Assembly (NCBI GenBank): GCA_023807065.1
Contig: JAJJLU010000003.1
Coordinates: 1-64,000 of the forward strand
Direction of reading: 5' to 3'
DNA length: 64,000 bases
From: Isotricha intestinalis
Lineage: Eukaryota > Ciliophora > Litostomatea > Vestibuliferida > Isotrichidae
In this document: piece after piece, positions 1 to 32,244 of the stretch
Layout: each line of letters begins with the position of its first letter
How positions within the stretch are numbered: the stretch's first letter is position 1
Notes under the pieces: generated by a model
Seen by the model: only the letters and a program-made list of their open reading frames with translations
Databases searched by the model: none
What the model was told of the DNA's origin: nothing
Made by a program: the position numbers and the translations under genes

Positions 1-1
1 T

Positions 2-15
2 CCCCAATCCCCAAT
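2..15. repeat. Telomere-like CCCCAAT repeat, two units
   Basis: Two exact tandem CCCCAAT units occupy the first bases of the window, followed directly by AT-rich leader DNA. Ciliate macronuclear telomeres are short C/A-rich units of this kind (CCCCAA, CCCCAAAA). The position at the very edge of the window fits a trimmed telomere, but two units alone cannot prove it. The same unit recurs at 1739-1764 and 1843-1855; the only other similar string I noticed is a single one at 36823. Confidence 0.6.
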
Positions 16-153: not shown

Positions 154-1632
154 ATGAATAACTTTCAAATTAAAATTTTTAAATCAATAAGTATATCATC
201 AACCAAAAGGGAGAACCTAGTAATTTCTCCTTTAAGTATATATCATATTCTATCTTTAACAACAAATGGTGCAGTTGGTAATACAAAAAAAGAAATGCTC
301 ACAGCCTTAGAGAATGATAGCCAAGAAGAAATGAACCAAAATAATAAAATAATAAAATCTATCATAAATAATTTTAAAACTGTTGAATTTGCAAATTCAA
401 TATTTTCAAGATTTATTCCCCTATCTACATTTATTGAAAAAGCAAAAGATTATAAAACTAAAATAGATAAATTAATAGATGAAAATCAAATTAATAATTG
501 GTGTTGTGAACATACTCATGGATTAATCAAAAAAATCCTTGAGAAAATTTATCCTGAAGATATAATAGTTTTAATCAATGCAATTTATTTTAAAGGATTA
601 TGGGAAATTGAATTTAATAAAAGATTTACTGAAGAAAGAGAATTTTTAAATTATCAAAAAGAAAAAAAATTGATAAGATTTATGCATTCAAATGACTTTT
701 ATAGATATTTTGAAAAAAATGATACTCAAGCTATTTCTCTAAATTATCGAAAAGATAATATAGAAGCTCTAATTATTTTACCAAAAAATGAGTATGATAT
801 TAATAATTATATTGAAATATTTGATCAAAAAGAATACTCTAATATAATTAAAGGATTAAATATTCAAAAAGTAGAATTATATTTGCCAAAATTTGAAATA
901 AAATTTAATACTGAATTAAAAAATATTTTTCAAGAATTAGGAATAAAATTAGCTTTTAAATCAGATGCAGATTTTTCTTCTATGACAAAATCACAAGCAA
1001 TTTATATAAGTAGAATAATACATAGTTCGTATATTAAAGTCGATGAAAAAGGAACTGAAGCTTCTGCAGTTACTGCAGTAGTAGGAACAAGGGGAGGAAG
1101 ACCTCATCAATGTCTTGAAAGAAGTATTATAATGGATATTAATCATCCATTTCTATTTATAATCAGGAACAAAGATCTACCTCCAGGACATGATATATTA
1201 TTTATTTCAAAAGTAGAAAATTTAGATAGAGATGAAGTTGGAAAAGAATCAAAAAAGTCACAAAATATTAATACTAAGGAAAAAGAAAGAAAAAAAATTG
1301 ATTTCAGTAAACTTGAATATGTTAATATTTCTTTTAAAAGGCCAGTAAAATGGTATATGTATATAATTAAATTAGTACTACAAAATAGAGAAAGTGTCGA
1401 TATTAAGGCTAGGCCTTTAGGAGCTTCCCAAGCTATAAGAGTTGTAGAAGCCCTTAAAAGGTTGGGATATATTTCTTATGTAAAGTATTATACATCTACT
1501 GTTGTTAATGATGGAAAACTAAAAAGATATATCATTATTAATGTTAAAAAGACTAAAGATTTCCAAAAATTATTCGATGAAAGAGAAGCTGAAAGGAAAA
1601 GAATATTAGAAAGTCAGAAAAAATTATTTTAA
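154..1632 (+). CDS. Serpin fused to a C-terminal Alba domain
   Basis: Residues 1-357 form a serpin (protease inhibitor). Seen are the helix A-B region (VISPLSIYHILSLTTNGAVG), the shutter strand VLINAIYFKGLWE, the hinge EKGTEASAVTAVV at 298-310 and the closing HPFLFIIRNK. The small-residue hinge is typical of inhibitory serpins. The scissile bond is probably near R313 or R316, suggesting a trypsin-like target (inference). A Lys-rich linker (about 360-387) leads to an Alba-like fold at 388-485: a VNISFKRP strand, a helix with ARPLGASQAIRVVEALKR, and YYTSTVV. Alba proteins bind RNA or DNA. There is no signal peptide, so the product is probably intracellular. The frame is continuous through the junction. 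Both domains are clear; the combination is unusual and its role unknown. The gene is flanked by CCCCAAT-type repeats in inverted orientation. Confidence 0.88.
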   Translation: MNNFQIKIFKSISISSTKRENLVISPLSIYHILSLTTNGAVGNTKKEMLTALENDSQEEMNQNNKIIKSIINNFKTVEFANSIFSRFIPLSTFIEKAKDYKTKIDKLIDENQINNWCCEHTHGLIKKILEKIYPEDIIVLINAIYFKGLWEIEFNKRFTEEREFLNYQKEKKLIRFMHSNDFYRYFEKNDTQAISLNYRKDNIEALIILPKNEYDINNYIEIFDQKEYSNIIKGLNIQKVELYLPKFEIKFNTELKNIFQELGIKLAFKSDADFSSMTKSQAIYISRIIHSSYIKVDEKGTEASAVTAVVGTRGGRPHQCLERSIIMDINHPFLFIIRNKDLPPGHDILFISKVENLDRDEVGKESKKSQNINTKEKERKKIDFSKLEYVNISFKRPVKWYMYIIKLVLQNRESVDIKARPLGASQAIRVVEALKRLGYISYVKYYTSTVVNDGKLKRYIIINVKKTKDFQKLFDEREAERKRILESQKKLF

Positions 1633-1738: not shown

Positions 1739-1764
1739 ATTGAGGATTGGGCCCAATCCCCAAT
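1739..1764. repeat. Head-to-head telomere-like palindrome
   Basis: A 26-bp inverted repeat with one mismatch. Its perfect 16-bp core GGATTGGGCCCAATCC lies at 1744-1759. The left arm reads as G-strand units (GAGG-ATTGAGG-ATTGGG, from 1735) and the right arm as C-strand units (CCCAAT-CCCCAAT). This is the arrangement expected where two telomeric ends of type CCCCAAT/ATTGGGG meet. It begins about 100 bp after the stop of the serpin-Alba gene. It could reflect a real end-to-end fusion, an assembly join of two small chromosomes, or a palindromic regulatory element. Confidence 0.65.
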
Positions 1765-9533: not shown

Positions 9534-10814
9534 TTATTTCCTAACAAAAATTTGGGTAAGATAAAATTCTCCATAACCATTTCTAAAAGTAGCAATAGCA
9601 CAATGTGAAGTATTACTTAATAAATTTTTTCTATGACCAGGAGAATTAATCCATCCATTAACTCCCATTGCAGCAATATGATATTGACTATATCCTTTAC
9701 ACATAAAAACATTTTCTGCAGCCATTGAAAAATAAAATCTAAATTTTTTTATTCTTTCATTAAAACCTGCATGACCGAATTTTACTTTATGTTTACCCAT
9801 ATTTTCACTGTGAACATATGCTACTCTCCATATTTCATCATCCCATTCTAATTCTGGTAATTTATTTTTCTTCCTAAATTCATTTGTTAATTCTAAACAC
9901 TTTTTACCTATCTCATCTTTACATATTCTTGTATTTTCAGGATTTTGATAATATAAATCATTTAATGTCATTATTTTTGGCTTTTCATTTTTTTTATCTT
10001 CATTATTATTATTTTTAGTGTTTTTATTTTTTATAATGTTTTTAAAATATTCTGAATTTTCTTTTTTTTTTGAATGGTAATTTTTACTGTTTTTTATTCT
10101 TATTGCTGCTGTTTCTTTTAAAAATGTTTTACCATCTTTTGGTTTATAATTTGGATTTCTTATTGAATTATTTTTTGGTGTATTTGACATTTCATTATAA
10201 TTATTCTTATTATTATCATTATTATTATTTGTATTTTTGTATACTGGAACTTTATCGTAATTTTCTGGTAATATTAATGTTTTTCCTAATCTAACATCTT
10301 TTGTATTTTTTAATATATCTATTACATTTGCTTTTTTATATTTCACTTCTTTTTCATCCTCAAAATTATTATTTTGAGAATTAAAATCATTTGATGTTTT
10401 ATTTGAATTGTAATAATTTATATCAGGTTGAATATTTAAAAGTAATAAATTTAAATATGGAAGAATAATTGAAAGAGTATATATATCAACATATTCTTCT
10501 GATAGATATAAATATAATTCATTATCAAAAGGTGCTTCTGTGAATCCTAAATATATAAAAAAATCATATACTCCTTCAATTTTAAATATTTTTTGAATAT
10601 TTGGATTTGATAATTTTATTTTTCTGAATTTTTCGTTTTCTTCTTCTATTAATTCTGTATTAAGAATATTTGATAATAGTTTAATTATTATTGTTAATAT
10701 TAATATTTGATTATCATTATTTGGTTCATCTATTAGAACACAAGAAACTAGATTAAATGTATTTTCATATGCAATTACTTCAAAAGCATCATTATTTGAT
10801 TCAGATGATTCCAT
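9534..10814 (-). CDS. PUB domain-CAP (SCP/PR-1) domain fusion protein
   Basis: 426 residues from the ATG at 10814; a longer frame would need a GTG start. Residues about 25-120 resemble a PUB/PUG domain, which in animals and plants docks p97/CDC48. Motifs are LLSNILNTELIEEENEKFRK, then KLSNPNIQKIFKIEGVYDFF and YLGF. A low-complexity Asn/Lys linker follows. Residues about 292-426 are a CAP superfamily domain: CLELTNEFRKKNKLPELEWD, AYVHSENMGKH, FGHAGF, AAENVF, GWINSPGHRKNLL and FYLTQIFVRK. The two His of the CAP cavity (FGHAG and PGHRKN) are kept. CAP proteins are normally secreted, but no signal peptide is present, which fits a cytosolic PUB protein. The architecture is unusual; function unknown. 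Confidence 0.85.
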   Translation of the reverse strand: MESSESNNDAFEVIAYENTFNLVSCVLIDEPNNDNQILILTIIIKLLSNILNTELIEEENEKFRKIKLSNPNIQKIFKIEGVYDFFIYLGFTEAPFDNELYLYLSEEYVDIYTLSIILPYLNLLLLNIQPDINYYNSNKTSNDFNSQNNNFEDEKEVKYKKANVIDILKNTKDVRLGKTLILPENYDKVPVYKNTNNNNDNNKNNYNEMSNTPKNNSIRNPNYKPKDGKTFLKETAAIRIKNSKNYHSKKKENSEYFKNIIKNKNTKNNNNEDKKNEKPKIMTLNDLYYQNPENTRICKDEIGKKCLELTNEFRKKNKLPELEWDDEIWRVAYVHSENMGKHKVKFGHAGFNERIKKFRFYFSMAAENVFMCKGYSQYHIAAMGVNGWINSPGHRKNLLSNTSHCAIATFRNGYGEFYLTQIFVRK

Positions 10815-25629: not shown

Positions 25630-28600
25630 TTAAAAAATAAATATTCTTTTCATATAATAAGCAATTTCATTTAATCCATCAGATTCAATCATAGAAATAG
25701 CAGCAATATATAAACTAGAAAATAAAACCCAATTAAAAATCATTCCCCAAATTCCAGAATAAAACCATTCAATTTGAGCATTTTGATATATAGAGAAAAA
25801 AACAACAGAATAATAAAAAAAGAAAACAGTAACTACAAAAATAAATATAATAGTAATTAATCTTTGAATATACATATCTTTTTCAAAATGATCAGCTTCA
25901 TTTAATTTAGCTTTATCATCTTTTGAACCTCTAATTAAATTATCTAATTCATTCCATTTTTTTTTTGTTACTAAACATATTAATCTTACTATTGCATTTA
26001 ATAACATCATTGATATTATTGATAATAATATTCTATGAAAGTTTTTAAAACAAAAAAAGAAATTATTTCTTCTTTCACTTTGAATTCTTTTTTCTAACAT
26101 ATTTTGAGTAAAATATAATGAATTAAAACCAAAAGTAGTTATTATACTAAATAAAAATATTAATGAATTTATCATTTGATTTCCTATTAAAGAAGGTAAA
26201 AATATTGATACTAAAGGATGTAAATGAATTAAATTTGTTATAAAATAATCTTGAAAGGGTTTTGATTCTTCGTGGTTTGAAACTTGACTATTTGAATTAG
26301 AAGAATTAGAATCAATATCATAATCTTTTTCTATTTCTTTTGGACCATTTGATTTATCTTGTAATTCAGTTTCTTGTTTAATTTCGGTTCCTAATTTATC
26401 ATTTTTAATTGCTAATAAATTATGCTTAAAAAAGTTAAATAATGCAATAATTCCTGATAATAGAATAATCATAATTAAATAAAACCAAAAAGCATAATTT
26501 TTGTGAATTTTAGATATTTTTAACAAACATAAAAATGGGATTTTCCCATTATTATATTCTTTATCATCTTTTTCAAATGATTGATTAATTTGTTTTATTT
26601 CATATGAAAAACCATTTTCTGTAATTAAATTTGATGGATTTGGACATGACATTATTACTTTTTTATTTTGAGTGTTTATATATGAAAAATAACAAGAAAC
26701 AGAATTTTGAGATTTTGTTATTTTATATTGTTGAATAATATTTTTTCTATTATAAAGAATTGGAATATCATAATTTAATCCATTTTCACATCTAAAACAT
26801 TGATTATTAAATGCAGGGTCTTTTGAATCATATATATTTATTCCATTTTGAGAACATTGAGAATATTTATTTATTATATCATATTTAATTGTTGGACTTG
26901 AATTCATTTTTAAAATTAAATTTGAACATTGATTAATTATATTGTCTTGTAAATTTGCTTTTTTTAAATTTGAATCATAGGAATATGCTCCTATATTTAT
27001 TAATTCTGATATATATACTGATTTTGATGATTCTTTTGAATTTGCTATTTCTTTGGAAAATATTATTTGAGTAAATAAGGTTTTTCCATTTTTTGATGAA
27101 GTAAATAAATTTGATGAGCAATTTGATGTATCTATTGTAGATAAATCCATTTTATCTGTGAATTGATTTAATTTTTTTATAGAATCCTCTTGATTTGTTG
27201 TAAAGATATAATTTATACTTGATAAATCTGTAGTAAATAATTTTATTGAATTTTCCTCAAAAGTATTTTGAGACAAATAATAATTAATAAAATCTTTTGA
27301 TAAATTAATTAAATCTTTCAATACATCTTCCTCTTCTTGAAGATTTCTTTGTTTAATATTAACTTTAATAGTTTGTTTTTTCAAAGCAGCATTCATTCCT
27401 AAATTAATTAATAAATATAAATTCTCATTATATTCAATAGATTGTTCTTTTATTGTTTTAGTTGTATCAATAATTATATTTAAAAAATCAAGATATTCAC
27501 TATTAGAAATTTTATTAGAATAATTATTAATGTAATAATTAATTTCTTTTACAATCAAAGGATCATCATTTAATTTATAAATATCATAACTTTTAAAATC
27601 ACTTTTTAATTTTAACATATAATTAAAAATTTCATTTTCTTTTATATCACAATATAAGCCAGTATATTCTTTATTACAGTTACAATTTGGAATTAAACCA
27701 TTTTCAACACAAACACCATTTACACAATAATTAGTACTGCATTTTTTAGATGAAAAATCATTTGAATTTTCTGGTAATATACATTTATTATCTAATGATA
27801 TATAACCTTTTTTACATGATTCAATTGGTTCTTTCCCTAATACTTTAATTTGAATATTTGATATAATTTTTTCATTTTTATAATCAAATGATTTTAAAAT
27901 ATATTCTCCTTTGGAAATATTTGTTAAATCAAATATACATTTTAATGAACTCTCTGTATTTTTTATACAATTTTTGAAAGGAAAGTTATTATTTGTTGAA
28001 TTATTTATTATAATATTTGTAATTTCTTCTGGAAGAATATTTTTGTTAAAGAATATAATGATTGATTGATCTTTTTCATATTCATATAAATTATTACTTA
28101 TTATTTTATCTATTTGAATAGGCTCTTCAGGATTATCATTTATAATAATATTTACTTGTTGTATTGTTGGTTCATGTGATAAATCGCTTTCAAAAAATGT
28201 TCTTGTTAATTCTATTATTTTATATGATATTTCAGATTCAATATTTAAATTAAATACTACAATATTATTTTCAATAGTGAAAATGTAATCTGCTATAATT
28301 TCTGGTTTTTCTTTTGTATAAATAAAAATCTGTTTATTTGAATTTTCTATCTTTATCTTTTCTAAATAAGACATATTAAATTGGGTTGATATTAATTGAA
28401 TTTTATTTTCTCCTATTTTTAAACTTCCTTCAATTTCTACTTTAAAATCAGAAATTGAAAAAGAGGGAATAATTAGAGTATCTGTTAATTTATAATTTTC
28501 ATAATTAAGATAATAATCTTGATGATTTAATAAAAATGGAATTTCAAAAGGATATTCACATTTTAAAATTTTATTATCTGTAAGATTACAATTTAATAAA

Positions 28601-31600
28601 TTTTTTTCTTCACTTTCTTTTTCAATTAAATTAATATTATTGATATTACAAATAACATCATTAAAAATAATATTATCAAAAGTATATTTTGAATAATACA
28701 TTAAATTAGAAAAAGTAATTTTCTGTGATAAAAGTGGATTCTCAAAATCATCGTTTTCAACGATTTTAATATAATAATTTCCATAATCTATTTTTTTAAT
28801 TTCATCAGAATATAAAATATAACTATTATCAATTTTATTAAAATAAAATTGAACTTTAAATAATCCAGTATTAATAACATAAGCTTTAATACTTTGCATA
28901 TCAATAGGATGAGGAGATTTTCTATAACTTTTGAAAATAATGTTATTTGAATTTTCAAATTTATAAAAACAATCATTAATATTATCAAATTGAATAAAAT
29001 CATCTACAGATTCAAAAACTCTAATTACTCTTGAAATAACTAAATATTGATCTCCAGTTTCAATTTTAGAATATGAAAATTGTTTATCTTCAACATTATT
29101 TATAATAAATGAATAAGTAAAATTTCCTTCATATTTTCCTTGTTCATATTGAGCATCAAATTTATTTACTGGTTTCATATAAATATTTGTTACTTTTTCT
29201 TTTTCATCTCCTAATATTTTAACTCTTAATATTTGAGATTTAGAATTTAATATTATATTAAATCTACTAAATTCAAAATTTAAAGCTAGAAATGTTATTG
29301 TTAAATCTGATAAACCATAATCTCCGTTATTAAAAACAAATTTAATTTTAAATTCTCCTTTTATTGATTCTTCTATTTTAAAATCTGTTAAACTAATATT
29401 CGCCTGATTATCTTCATTAATTGTAACATTAAATGAATAACTTAATTCAGTATAATTTTCTTTATATACAAATCTTATTTTTTCTACATAAACAGTATCA
29501 GTAAAATTTTTATCGAATAATAAAAATAATTCTTCTTTTTGATACATTGGTAAACTTAAACTTTTAGGATTTATTTCTAAAATTTGATAATTTGTAACTA
29601 ATTCTGCTATTAATATAGGAATATTATCATCTGTTATTTTAATTTCTTTACCACAAGAATCAACATAATATAAATTATATTCTCCTGATTTTTGACCTCC
29701 AAAATTAAATCTACATTGAATTGAGAAATTATTGGTTTTTACACATTGAGAAGATTCAATTGTATTAATTAATTCATTACTTTTATATTTAAATATTAAT
29801 TTTGAAATATCATAATCTAAAGTTTCTTCAAACTCAACATTATATAAACTTGTAACTTTTTTTTCTATTGTAGTTAAATAATTTAAAGATGTATATTTCT
29901 TTAATATTGTTATTTCACTATCTGGTAACTCAATCAAAGTATTAGTTCCATTAAATTTAATATAAAGTTTATATTCTCCACTTGTAAAATTTTCTCCTCT
30001 AAATATTTCATTATCTTCAATATCTTTATCTAATTTATATTCTCTTTCACTTGATATTATATAGATATCTAAATCATTGAAATATGAAGCATGAACTTCT
30101 AATTTTTTTGTAGTTTCTGTATGACATTGTCCTTCATTTACTGAAAAAGTGGATATTTCCATAATTCTTTGAGAATAAAAATATTCTTTATCTTCTGAAA
30201 ATTCAATTGATAAACTTTTTTTTGAAGGAATTTCAATATTTAATTCACATTGTATATTATATGTTTCTTCTGTCTTTAATATACAAGTTAATTTTTTTGG
30301 ATTTTGATTTAATTCTCGATAATAAAAATAATCTATGTAATAAATTGGATTTTCTATATTTATCTCTATCGGTAAGTTTTTTTGAGAAGTTTTTGTTATA
30401 TCAAAATAAAATTGGGGATTTATTAATTTAAACATGTAATATTTTATTGAATAAGTTAAAATTTCCTCATTTATTAATTCAAATTTCAGATCATATTTAC
30501 CTTCAGATTTCATTTCATTAATTAATTCATTTGTATTGATCTTTATAATTTTATTTTCATATGTAAATGGTAATTTAAGATAACCAAATGAAATTTTTAA
30601 AATTTGTTCAGAAAGAATTTCATTGTTTAATTGTATTTCTAAAGGATTTTCTAAAGTTTTATTAAAAATAAGAAATGTAGAATTTTGTACAAATTCAACT
30701 TCATAATTATATACAAGTATATATTTTTCTGATTCTTGAATTCTATCATCTTTAATAATACAAATAAAATATTTTCCAGGAGATGTAGAATTTTTTCTTG
30801 GAGGAATAGTAAAGCTAAAATAAAATTCTTCTTCAAATGGAATTAATTCATAAGGTACATCATCTAATTTTTCATTTTGTTCATTTTTCAATAAAAGTTT
30901 AGTTCCTTCAATTGCGCCTAATAATGTAATATTATATGTAACATAATCAGTTTGTGTTATATTATAATACGGTGGAGAAACTTTGTAAACATTAAGATTA
31001 CCAAAAAAAACAGACAAACCTGAATTAGATTCTGACCCACATTTATGATAATATTTAATCATATATTCACCTTCAGTTAAATAATTTGCATAATCAAAAT
31101 TAATAGAACAAATTACTTTATCTTCATATGTTTTAGGATATCTTATTTCTTCTGTGTTATTTTTATCTTTAAAAAAAATAATTTTTTCAAATTCATACTT
31201 CTGTAATTGTCTTGAATATGTTAAAATAATTGATTGAGTTTTATCCATTGGAATAATATTTCTATCAACATTTATAAAATAATGAGGATAAAATTCTAAA
31301 AAATAATCCTCAATAATAGTTAATTCTTCATCAGATAAATAAACATATAATGTTGAAGTATTAAAATCTTTATTAAATTTAAAATGAGCAATTTGATTTG
31401 TTTTTTCATAAACTTGAGTAGAAAATTTATATTGTTTCTCTTTATCTAAATAAATATCAAAATTATATCCAAGATTTTCTTCAGATTCGATTAATAAAGA
31501 AATATTTTTACCATTATCAGAACAAGTTGAATTACCAATTATTGAATAAATAAAAATATATAATGAAAAAGTTATAGTGGTAGATTTTGGAAGTTCATCA

Positions 31601-32244
31601 TAATATGTAATACTTACAAAATAAGGAGAAAATTTATTTAAATCAAAAATAAAATCACAAGTATAAATTCTTAAATTTTGTTTATCACATTTATATGTTG
31701 AATTTGTTGATACTGCGACATCAATTTTGAAATTTTCTAAAATATTATCTTCAAAAAAATCAAAATTTATTTTGGCAGTTTTTTCAGATTTATCTTTTTG
31801 AAAAAACAATTTATTTTTATCTGGTTTAAAACTTCTTAGGTAATAAGAACTGTTTGATAAATCAATTTCTTTTTCTTCATCTTTTATGTTTATTAATTGA
31901 TAAATTCCTCCATAATACTCTATCATTATTATAATTTTAGATGAATCAGATTTAAATTTATTTGAACAATTTGCTTTCTTTGTACAAAAAGTTAAATTTT
32001 TTTTTTCAATATCATCATCTTCATTATCGTATATAATTGTTATTTCTGTAATATTTGATATATTATAATAGTCTGAAGTTATTGTTATAGTTGAATTTAA
32101 TCTTGCTGGCTTTGGAATTTCTATGTTAAGTAAATCTTCTGATAATGAATTTTGTGATTGAGTATTTCTGAGAAATCCTTTGTTTTTTTCATAAGTGAAT
32201 GATGTCAATACTAATAAGATAAATAAAAAATTTTTATCAATCAT
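25630..32244 (-). CDS. Giant surface protein with repeats, EGF-like segment and polytopic C-terminus
   Basis: 2204 residues. A signal peptide (MIDKNFLFILLVLTSF) is followed by about 1450 residues of beta-rich sequence. Modules of roughly 100-130 residues each close with a G-[EKN]-Y-x-[IL] motif (EGEYMIKYY, SGEYKLYIKF, SGEYNLYYV, KGEFKIKFVF, KGEYILKSF), like stacked Ig/E-set domains. An EGF-like cysteine cluster (CSTNYCVNGVC...CNCNKEYTGLYC) lies at about 27640-27760. A membrane helix near 26430-26500 is followed by a charged loop, then about five more helices to the end (FIFVVTVFFFYYSVVFF, WVLFSSLYIAAISM). The order, large ectodomain, TM, loop, TM bundle, recalls polycystin-1-like receptors, but no clear GPS cleavage site or PLAT domain was seen. 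Likely a plasma-membrane adhesion or sensory protein. Confidence 0.7.
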   Translation of the reverse strand: MIDKNFLFILLVLTSFTYEKNKGFLRNTQSQNSLSEDLLNIEIPKPARLNSTITITSDYYNISNITEITIIYDNEDDDIEKKNLTFCTKKANCSNKFKSDSSKIIIMIEYYGGIYQLINIKDEEKEIDLSNSSYYLRSFKPDKNKLFFQKDKSEKTAKINFDFFEDNILENFKIDVAVSTNSTYKCDKQNLRIYTCDFIFDLNKFSPYFVSITYYDELPKSTTITFSLYIFIYSIIGNSTCSDNGKNISLLIESEENLGYNFDIYLDKEKQYKFSTQVYEKTNQIAHFKFNKDFNTSTLYVYLSDEELTIIEDYFLEFYPHYFINVDRNIIPMDKTQSIILTYSRQLQKYEFEKIIFFKDKNNTEEIRYPKTYEDKVICSINFDYANYLTEGEYMIKYYHKCGSESNSGLSVFFGNLNVYKVSPPYYNITQTDYVTYNITLLGAIEGTKLLLKNEQNEKLDDVPYELIPFEEEFYFSFTIPPRKNSTSPGKYFICIIKDDRIQESEKYILVYNYEVEFVQNSTFLIFNKTLENPLEIQLNNEILSEQILKISFGYLKLPFTYENKIIKINTNELINEMKSEGKYDLKFELINEEILTYSIKYYMFKLINPQFYFDITKTSQKNLPIEINIENPIYYIDYFYYRELNQNPKKLTCILKTEETYNIQCELNIEIPSKKSLSIEFSEDKEYFYSQRIMEISTFSVNEGQCHTETTKKLEVHASYFNDLDIYIISSEREYKLDKDIEDNEIFRGENFTSGEYKLYIKFNGTNTLIELPDSEITILKKYTSLNYLTTIEKKVTSLYNVEFEETLDYDISKLIFKYKSNELINTIESSQCVKTNNFSIQCRFNFGGQKSGEYNLYYVDSCGKEIKITDDNIPILIAELVTNYQILEINPKSLSLPMYQKEELFLLFDKNFTDTVYVEKIRFVYKENYTELSYSFNVTINEDNQANISLTDFKIEESIKGEFKIKFVFNNGDYGLSDLTITFLALNFEFSRFNIILNSKSQILRVKILGDEKEKVTNIYMKPVNKFDAQYEQGKYEGNFTYSFIINNVEDKQFSYSKIETGDQYLVISRVIRVFESVDDFIQFDNINDCFYKFENSNNIIFKSYRKSPHPIDMQSIKAYVINTGLFKVQFYFNKIDNSYILYSDEIKKIDYGNYYIKIVENDDFENPLLSQKITFSNLMYYSKYTFDNIIFNDVICNINNINLIEKESEEKNLLNCNLTDNKILKCEYPFEIPFLLNHQDYYLNYENYKLTDTLIIPSFSISDFKVEIEGSLKIGENKIQLISTQFNMSYLEKIKIENSNKQIFIYTKEKPEIIADYIFTIENNIVVFNLNIESEISYKIIELTRTFFESDLSHEPTIQQVNIIINDNPEEPIQIDKIISNNLYEYEKDQSIIIFFNKNILPEEITNIIINNSTNNNFPFKNCIKNTESSLKCIFDLTNISKGEYILKSFDYKNEKIISNIQIKVLGKEPIESCKKGYISLDNKCILPENSNDFSSKKCSTNYCVNGVCVENGLIPNCNCNKEYTGLYCDIKENEIFNYMLKLKSDFKSYDIYKLNDDPLIVKEINYYINNYSNKISNSEYLDFLNIIIDTTKTIKEQSIEYNENLYLLINLGMNAALKKQTIKVNIKQRNLQEEEDVLKDLINLSKDFINYYLSQNTFEENSIKLFTTDLSSINYIFTTNQEDSIKKLNQFTDKMDLSTIDTSNCSSNLFTSSKNGKTLFTQIIFSKEIANSKESSKSVYISELINIGAYSYDSNLKKANLQDNIINQCSNLILKMNSSPTIKYDIINKYSQCSQNGINIYDSKDPAFNNQCFRCENGLNYDIPILYNRKNIIQQYKITKSQNSVSCYFSYINTQNKKVIMSCPNPSNLITENGFSYEIKQINQSFEKDDKEYNNGKIPFLCLLKISKIHKNYAFWFYLIMIILLSGIIALFNFFKHNLLAIKNDKLGTEIKQETELQDKSNGPKEIEKDYDIDSNSSNSNSQVSNHEESKPFQDYFITNLIHLHPLVSIFLPSLIGNQMINSLIFLFSIITTFGFNSLYFTQNMLEKRIQSERRNNFFFCFKNFHRILLSIISMMLLNAIVRLICLVTKKKWNELDNLIRGSKDDKAKLNEADHFEKDMYIQRLITIIFIFVVTVFFFYYSVVFFSIYQNAQIEWFYSGIWGMIFNWVLFSSLYIAAISMIESDGLNEIAYYMKRIFIF

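Follow-up and report, generated by a model that had tools for sequence, protein, structure and literature searches.

A gene near the left end of the window (the whole stretch of DNA that was analysed, 64,000 nucleotides of a contig of the ciliate Isotricha intestinalis) encodes a serpin that is continued in the same frame by an Alba domain. It is close to certain that this fusion is real, a conserved two-domain protein in a ciliate. It is a novel pairing of two known families, not a new kind of molecule. From its sequence and by analogy with known systems, the product may be an intracellular inhibitory serpin that acts against papain-like cysteine proteases and is held on RNA or chromatin by its Alba part; a probability of roughly one half was assigned to this reading. 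The features of the gene are as follows.

154..1632, plus strand: serpin-Alba fusion gene, 492 amino acids, stop codon TAA; continuous frame, with 21 further predicted proteins alike
157..1221, plus strand: serpin domain, residues 2-356
1045..1122, plus strand: reactive-centre loop (RCL), residues 298-323, with the hinge at 298-308; invariant hinge residues, pLDDT below 50 at 308-322
1087..1095, plus strand: [T/F/Y]-R-G motif in the loop, residues 312-314, here T-R-G; R and G in 23/23 fused rows
1222..1302, plus strand: polar linker, residues 357-383, its middle predicted to be disordered (pLDDT below 50 at 361-380); length varies
1309..1557, plus strand: Alba domain, residues 386-468, by profile and fold; 65% identity to a separate Alba protein of the same genome
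1561..1626, plus strand: predicted C-terminal helix of the Alba part, residues 470-491; alignments with T. brucei ALBA1 and rice Alba reach into this helix

The product of 154..1632 was assigned to the serpins by full-length fold and by profile. For the fused C-terminal part, the predicted structure had the beta-alpha-beta-alpha-beta-beta fold of Alba proteins, and a profile match to rice Alba1 was obtained at 2.7e-5; a chance Alba match was set aside on these two grounds. With Pfam PF01918 the fused domain scored 18.2 bits, under the curated cut-off of 25. The standalone Alba protein that this genome also encodes likewise fell short of it (17.4 bits), which indicates that this model is weak for the present branch of Alba proteins. 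The HMM support that the earlier note had asked for was thus found for the serpin, and for Alba by profile and fold but not at the Pfam cut-off. The Alba structure comparison rests on the first predicted model (mean pLDDT 51); the best 50 solved-structure matches listed for a second, better model were serpins only. T. brucei ALBA1 and the plant proteins At2g34160 and rice Alba1 are small solved chains (target lengths 93-114), whereas Alba forms the tail of a serpin in the fusion.

The single frame joining serpin to Alba, proposed in the earlier note, was confirmed, and the search for the same architecture in other proteins was successful. Among the best 120 listed of 735 matches to the whole protein, 21 fused relatives (P0002-P0022) of 464-496 amino acids were found, 64-97% identical to the I. 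intestinalis protein. Three of them (P0004, P0006 and P0007) have a predicted start at a later methionine and are without the first serpin helix. In P0023 the Alba end is broken or lost. The shorter piece P0024 begins with G-rich, CCCCAAT-type telomere words translated in frame directly before the serpin, which fits a ciliate host. In P0027 a different N-terminal part is joined to the serpin end and Alba; both P0024 and P0027 look like joined molecules. When the Alba region was used as query on proteins whose length was 0.55-1.75 times that of the fusion (270-860 amino acids), 24 of 241 candidates matched, and a serpin domain was present in 24/24.

To our knowledge, most serpins are standalone proteins and few have ties to nucleic acid; the best studied of these is MENT. 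The statement of the earlier note that no such fusion is described agreed with the open-licence literature searched, in which no description of a serpin-Alba fusion was found (rumen-ciliate, protist and multidomain serpin topics included) and nothing on a serpin in Entodinium. The word 'serpin' was absent from the available part of the main text of a 2024 survey of Alba domains (PMC11621453), as were 'fusion' and 'multidomain' from the available part of a 2021 serpin phylogeny (PMC8233489).

The genome comprised 57.3 Mb in 2153 contigs. Three-repeat CCCCAAT gave 1586 overlapping matches in it and none in the reversed control; the plus-strand matches, among those listed (part of the 1586), lay within the first 71 bases of contigs. 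This telomere repeat has been reported for Entodinium (PMC6211341) and, in the accessible parts of the sources, for Balantidium (PMC10978948) and Muniziella (PMC11316547). The window had 18% GC, and the stop codons of its 27 frames of at least 150 amino acids were TAA (25), TAG (2) and TGA (0). With CCCCAAT telomeres present in the sequence, the genome was read as the macronucleus of a trichostomatid (gut) ciliate. Two further predicted proteins of the window were recorded: at 9534-10814 (minus strand) PUB and CAP (cysteine-rich secretory) domains occur in one protein, an odd pair in which one domain belongs to the ubiquitin pathway and the other is usually secreted, and a 2204-amino-acid frame at 25630-32244 (minus strand) had no Pfam match at E 0.001. 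In viral contigs, 86 stretches matched a pattern and none was a relative.

The contig, C3, measures 88,630 bases and carries two telomere repeats at each end, and the fusion gene lies within its first 1.63 kb, between these features:

1..15, plus strand: left end of C3, two CCCCAAT telomere repeats; the repeat starts many other contigs
1744..1759, no strand assigned: telomere-like palindrome GGATTGGGCCCAATCC, 16 bp, 112 bases past the stop codon; 67 places in the genome

A form of the palindrome with four G and four C occurred nowhere in the genome; counts of other forms cover only the retrieved loci. The surroundings were AT-rich at the four copies read. Candidate explanations for the palindrome are a mark for chromosome breakage, a dispersed element and a regular join. 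One form at 67 places and the four-G/four-C form at none argue against random end-joining, without excluding random joins, and weakened the candidate view of 1-1751 as a chimeric telomere-to-telomere join. The longest contig measured 1525-1749 bases in 17 of the 21 fused relatives. Taken with the position of the gene and the palindrome, these lengths are compatible with a unit of about 1.7 kb that carries one gene, be it a short chromosome or a stretch prone to assembly breaks. The palindrome calls for care with contig joins in this genome, and the fusion might in principle be an artefact in which assembly or gene reading had joined two genes. The palindrome lies outside the gene, however, and the same domain order in 21 further predicted proteins, together with the serpin domain in all 24 proteins recovered with this Alba type, makes such an error extremely improbable; an assembly or frame error was set aside.

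The origin of the two parts was examined with quick trees, in which all support values are SH-aLRT only. As unfused rows, the serpin tree (92 rows) included the members of P0032-P0121 with at least 330 amino acids, 87 in all, of which 60 were left after thinning at 92% identity. All 23 fused rows formed one clade (support 100), the unfused serpin C584 of the same genome fell outside it, and the unfused P0032 was its sister (support 91). By this sequence grouping, the fused serpin parts share one origin. The search for separate Alba proteins yielded 430 matches; among the best 120 listed, at least five (P0123, P0124, P0125, P0128 and P0129) look like pieces of fused genes. The standalone set of the Alba tree was taken without P0122-P0125 and P0129, the rest of the 120 being thinned to 66 at 93%, and P0123 and P0129 were re-entered as fused fragments. 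The fused rows grouped together (support 91, P0128 included) inside the family of separate small Alba proteins. The label 'fused' needs two changes on this tree, with P0128, taken as standalone, nested inside; the start of P0128 reads by eye like a frame-shifted fused linker, and it was counted as a fragment.

The separate Alba proteins, mostly of 126-136 amino acids among the matches listed, were 62-75% identical to the fused Alba part. The lead-in E-R-K-x-x-D-F/L-S just before the Alba core is present in the I. intestinalis fusion and in many separate copies read, and is altered in some fused rows; its retention is expected if nearly the whole of a small Alba gene was appended. As judged from tree and sequence, the fused Alba part derives from the family of small separate Alba proteins, which share its lead-in but, unlike it, are standalone and somewhat more conserved. 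The I. intestinalis genome retains both unfused counterparts, a separate Alba protein (C1519), 65% identical to the fused domain, and the serpin C584, with 67% DNA identity over 226-1224. Thirteen serpin matches were found in the genome, and only the copy at 154..1632 carries the Alba part. Elsewhere in the genome, ten other Alba matches lay above the Pfam cut-off (L001-L008, C991 and C1380), with RG-rich tails in several of the frames read. Seven further Alba-like paralogues were 32-40% identical to the fused domain.

The inhibitory-type hinge described in the earlier note was supported: E298, G300, T301, A303 and A305 are invariant in 23/23 fused rows, as in the G-T-E-A-A-A type hinge of inhibitory serpins, which was counted in favour of a tethered inhibitor. 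R313 and G314 are likewise invariant in 23/23 fused rows, the fused fragments P0025, P0027, P0029 and P0030 being left out of this count, and are preceded by T (12 rows), F (10) or Y (1). At the same columns of 86 unfused relatives, the commonest residues were K (50%) at 313 and R (29%) at 314. The truncated fused relative P0121 is without R-G and was counted against a tethered inhibitor. It was also considered that the R-G might serve as an RGG motif for RNA binding inside the loop; the K-G-R of unfused P0032 points to the glycine having come first. The distance from E298 to R is 15 residues inclusive in 12 rows and 16 in 11. By hinge count the strict P1 is G314 in the I. intestinalis protein, not R313, and differs in other rows. 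With the hinge-to-R distance one residue shorter in 12/23 rows, the cut may fall at R-G or at the next bond, and a strict trypsin-type P1 of Arg was unsupported on account of this variable distance.

Phe-Arg ahead of the cut is the classic bait of papain-type enzymes, and Thr is poor for a papain-type S2; the Thr before R in 12/23 fused rows was therefore counted against a papain-type target. When the RCL segment (residues 283-345) alone was searched against solved structures, the best matches were miropin (4.5e-9), MENT (5e-7), SERPINB3 (1e-6) and leukocyte elastase inhibitor (1.3e-6). This ranking fits cysteine-protease inhibitors without separating the classes, as miropin leads and leukocyte elastase inhibitor, by name a serine-protease inhibitor, follows. 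In SERPINB3, according to the accessible part of the source, the scissile bond is 354/355, with G351 and F352 just before it (PMC4136820). SERPINB3 and clade B resemble the fusion in having no extension before the core, an inhibitory hinge and a similar loop up to Gly 311, but they are single-domain proteins with other cut-site residues, and no orthology is claimed.

The argument on the class of target draws on an exon-by-exon search of the genome for four protease families. Peptidase_C1 gave 17 matches (15 strong and free of stops, one with stops and one short), trypsin one weak match, subtilase one, and C14 proteases none. A trypsin or a metacaspase was accordingly set aside as the most likely target, although the exon-wise search does not prove their absence. 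The abundance of C1 makes papain-like enzymes the likeliest endogenous target among the four families, and papain-like (cathepsin-type) proteases are probably the target, with [F/Y/T]-R-G as the bait. The two cystatins of the genome were counted against the tethered-inhibitor reading. In the portions of the sources that were available, SERPINB3 is an inhibitor of cathepsins K, L and S (PMC7863939), and loss of srp-6 or of SERPINB3 homologues leads to cathepsin-dependent cell death, cytosolic serpins guarding against leaked cathepsins (PMC8755814). The serpin core of the I. intestinalis fusion has no N-terminal extension, which was counted for an intracellular protein; by eye, several paralogues (C141, C1724, C2131, C1039 and C1125) start with a hydrophobic leader.

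In archaeal Alba, a role is known for basic residues at the turn between strand 1 and helix 1 and for those in the loops. Such residues were found at 396 in 22/23 fused rows, at 399 and 418 in 23 and at 420 in 21; over the seven positions 396, 399, 406, 418, 420, 429 and 435 they are retained in 21-23/23. The consensus of the fused domain (22 rows) equals that of separate Alba proteins (66 rows) at 81/101 columns, and the mean frequency of the commonest residue is similar in the two sets (0.82 vs 0.86). By sequence comparison the fused Alba domain is under constraint. The T. brucei Alba proteins are described, in the part of the source at hand, as cytoplasmic, mRNA-binding, mutually associated and present in starvation granules (PMC3141063). 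Four of 11 Alba genes of Oxytricha are preferentially expressed during macronuclear development, according to the available part of that report (PMC5312943), and by this analogy a nuclear site would be equally possible.

Under the tethered-inhibitor reading, akin to the suggestion of the earlier note that inhibition might be placed on RNA granules or chromatin, a papain-like (cathepsin-type) protease would cut near [F/Y/T]-R-G, the cut loop would insert into sheet A and the protease would be trapped. The Alba part, as a homodimer or paired with a separate Alba protein, would anchor the trap to RNA-protein particles or chromatin, and proteins bound to nucleic acid would be shielded when lysosomal proteases leak in the phagotrophic cell. 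Dockerin-bearing cellulosome serpins are likewise targeted by an added domain; unlike the fusion they are extracellular, and the added domain binds protein rather than nucleic acid. MENT is a chromatin-bound serpin that, as given in the available part of the source, inhibits cathepsin V when DNA is present and changes shape on chromatin via parts of the serpin itself (PMC2648895). It resembles the fusion in being tied to chromatin, as is proposed for the latter, and in an RCL that was among the best solved matches. It differs in that its DNA binding is by the M-loop and the D/E-helix area of the serpin, whereas the fusion has a separate C-terminal Alba domain. The comparison is an analogy, and no membership is claimed.

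The same features were weighed under other functions. The protein could be a sensor or switch of proteolysis, an idea also raised in the earlier note, in which cutting or binding of nucleic acid would lead to loop insertion and altered Alba action, inhibition not being the point. The scissile bond, off the canonical distance in some rows, would suit this, but the linker (columns 357-380 hold 7-24 residues in the alignment of the 23 fused rows) is predicted to be disordered and resembles a tether more than a rigid lever, and the conserved hinge equally suits plain inhibition; a switch is considered unlikely. Next in rank, and rather unlikely, is an Alba part that serves as an assembly handle only, which would dimerise the serpin or recruit it to separate Alba proteins with no contact to nucleic acid. 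A 65% identical separate Alba protein is available in the same genome, and T. brucei Alba proteins co-purify with one another in the accessible part of that study (PMC3141063); retention of the basic positions, 396, 399, 418 and 420 included, speaks against a mere handle. It is improbable that the fusion is neutral, its Alba tail a passenger that drifts in sequence and has no function of its own. Fused Alba rows are indeed more divergent than standalone ones (mean identity 0.71 vs 0.77), and P0023 has lost the end of the domain, but 22/23 rows of one clade retain the whole domain, and Alba (386-470) is about as conserved as the serpin core (20-292), with mean commonest-residue frequencies of 0.81 and 0.79. 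Against these alternatives, the tethered inhibitor was preferred.

Appendages of at least 25 amino acids, N- or C-terminal, were found in 28/87 unfused relatives. A net charge of +4 to +18 was found in 24/28 and 4/28 were not basic; many of these rows are near-copies, so they do not represent 24 separate events. P0032, which the tree places closest among the unfused rows, has an RS-rich tail. The recurrence of basic appendages on unfused relatives was counted for the tethered inhibitor. Asn-rich tails with PFDF(V/I)N near the end and lysine-rich leader repeats (DKKIVPTDKK) were also observed (P0053, P0055, P0112 and P0119; P0038, P0062 and others). The I. intestinalis locus C1397 (L017:793-2562) has two C1_2 zinc-finger stretches ahead of a serpin without an inhibitory hinge, and the order is similar in C200 (L020:889-1908), where the serpin match contains two in-frame TAA. 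P0065, recorded as the anaerobic gut fungus Anaeromyces robustus, falls among the relatives of the ciliate serpin; by this record the unfused relatives are not all ciliate. Its place there points either to a transfer of genes among gut eukaryotes or to a record with the wrong source.

A wider proposal is advanced tentatively and is held with low confidence: ciliates may have evolved a nucleic-acid-tethered suicide protease trap on RNA particles or chromatin, whose irreversible loop insertion would also report or reset the RNA- or DNA-bound state, and which would be one of several independent gains of basic appendages in this serpin group (Alba, RS-rich tail, lysine-rich leaders). Mapping of this group, with its repeated gain of appendages, across gut ciliates and fungi would be worthwhile. 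Through the conserved fusion it can be tested directly whether a modular domain ever brings protease inhibition to RNA or chromatin, here in a cathepsin-rich cell.
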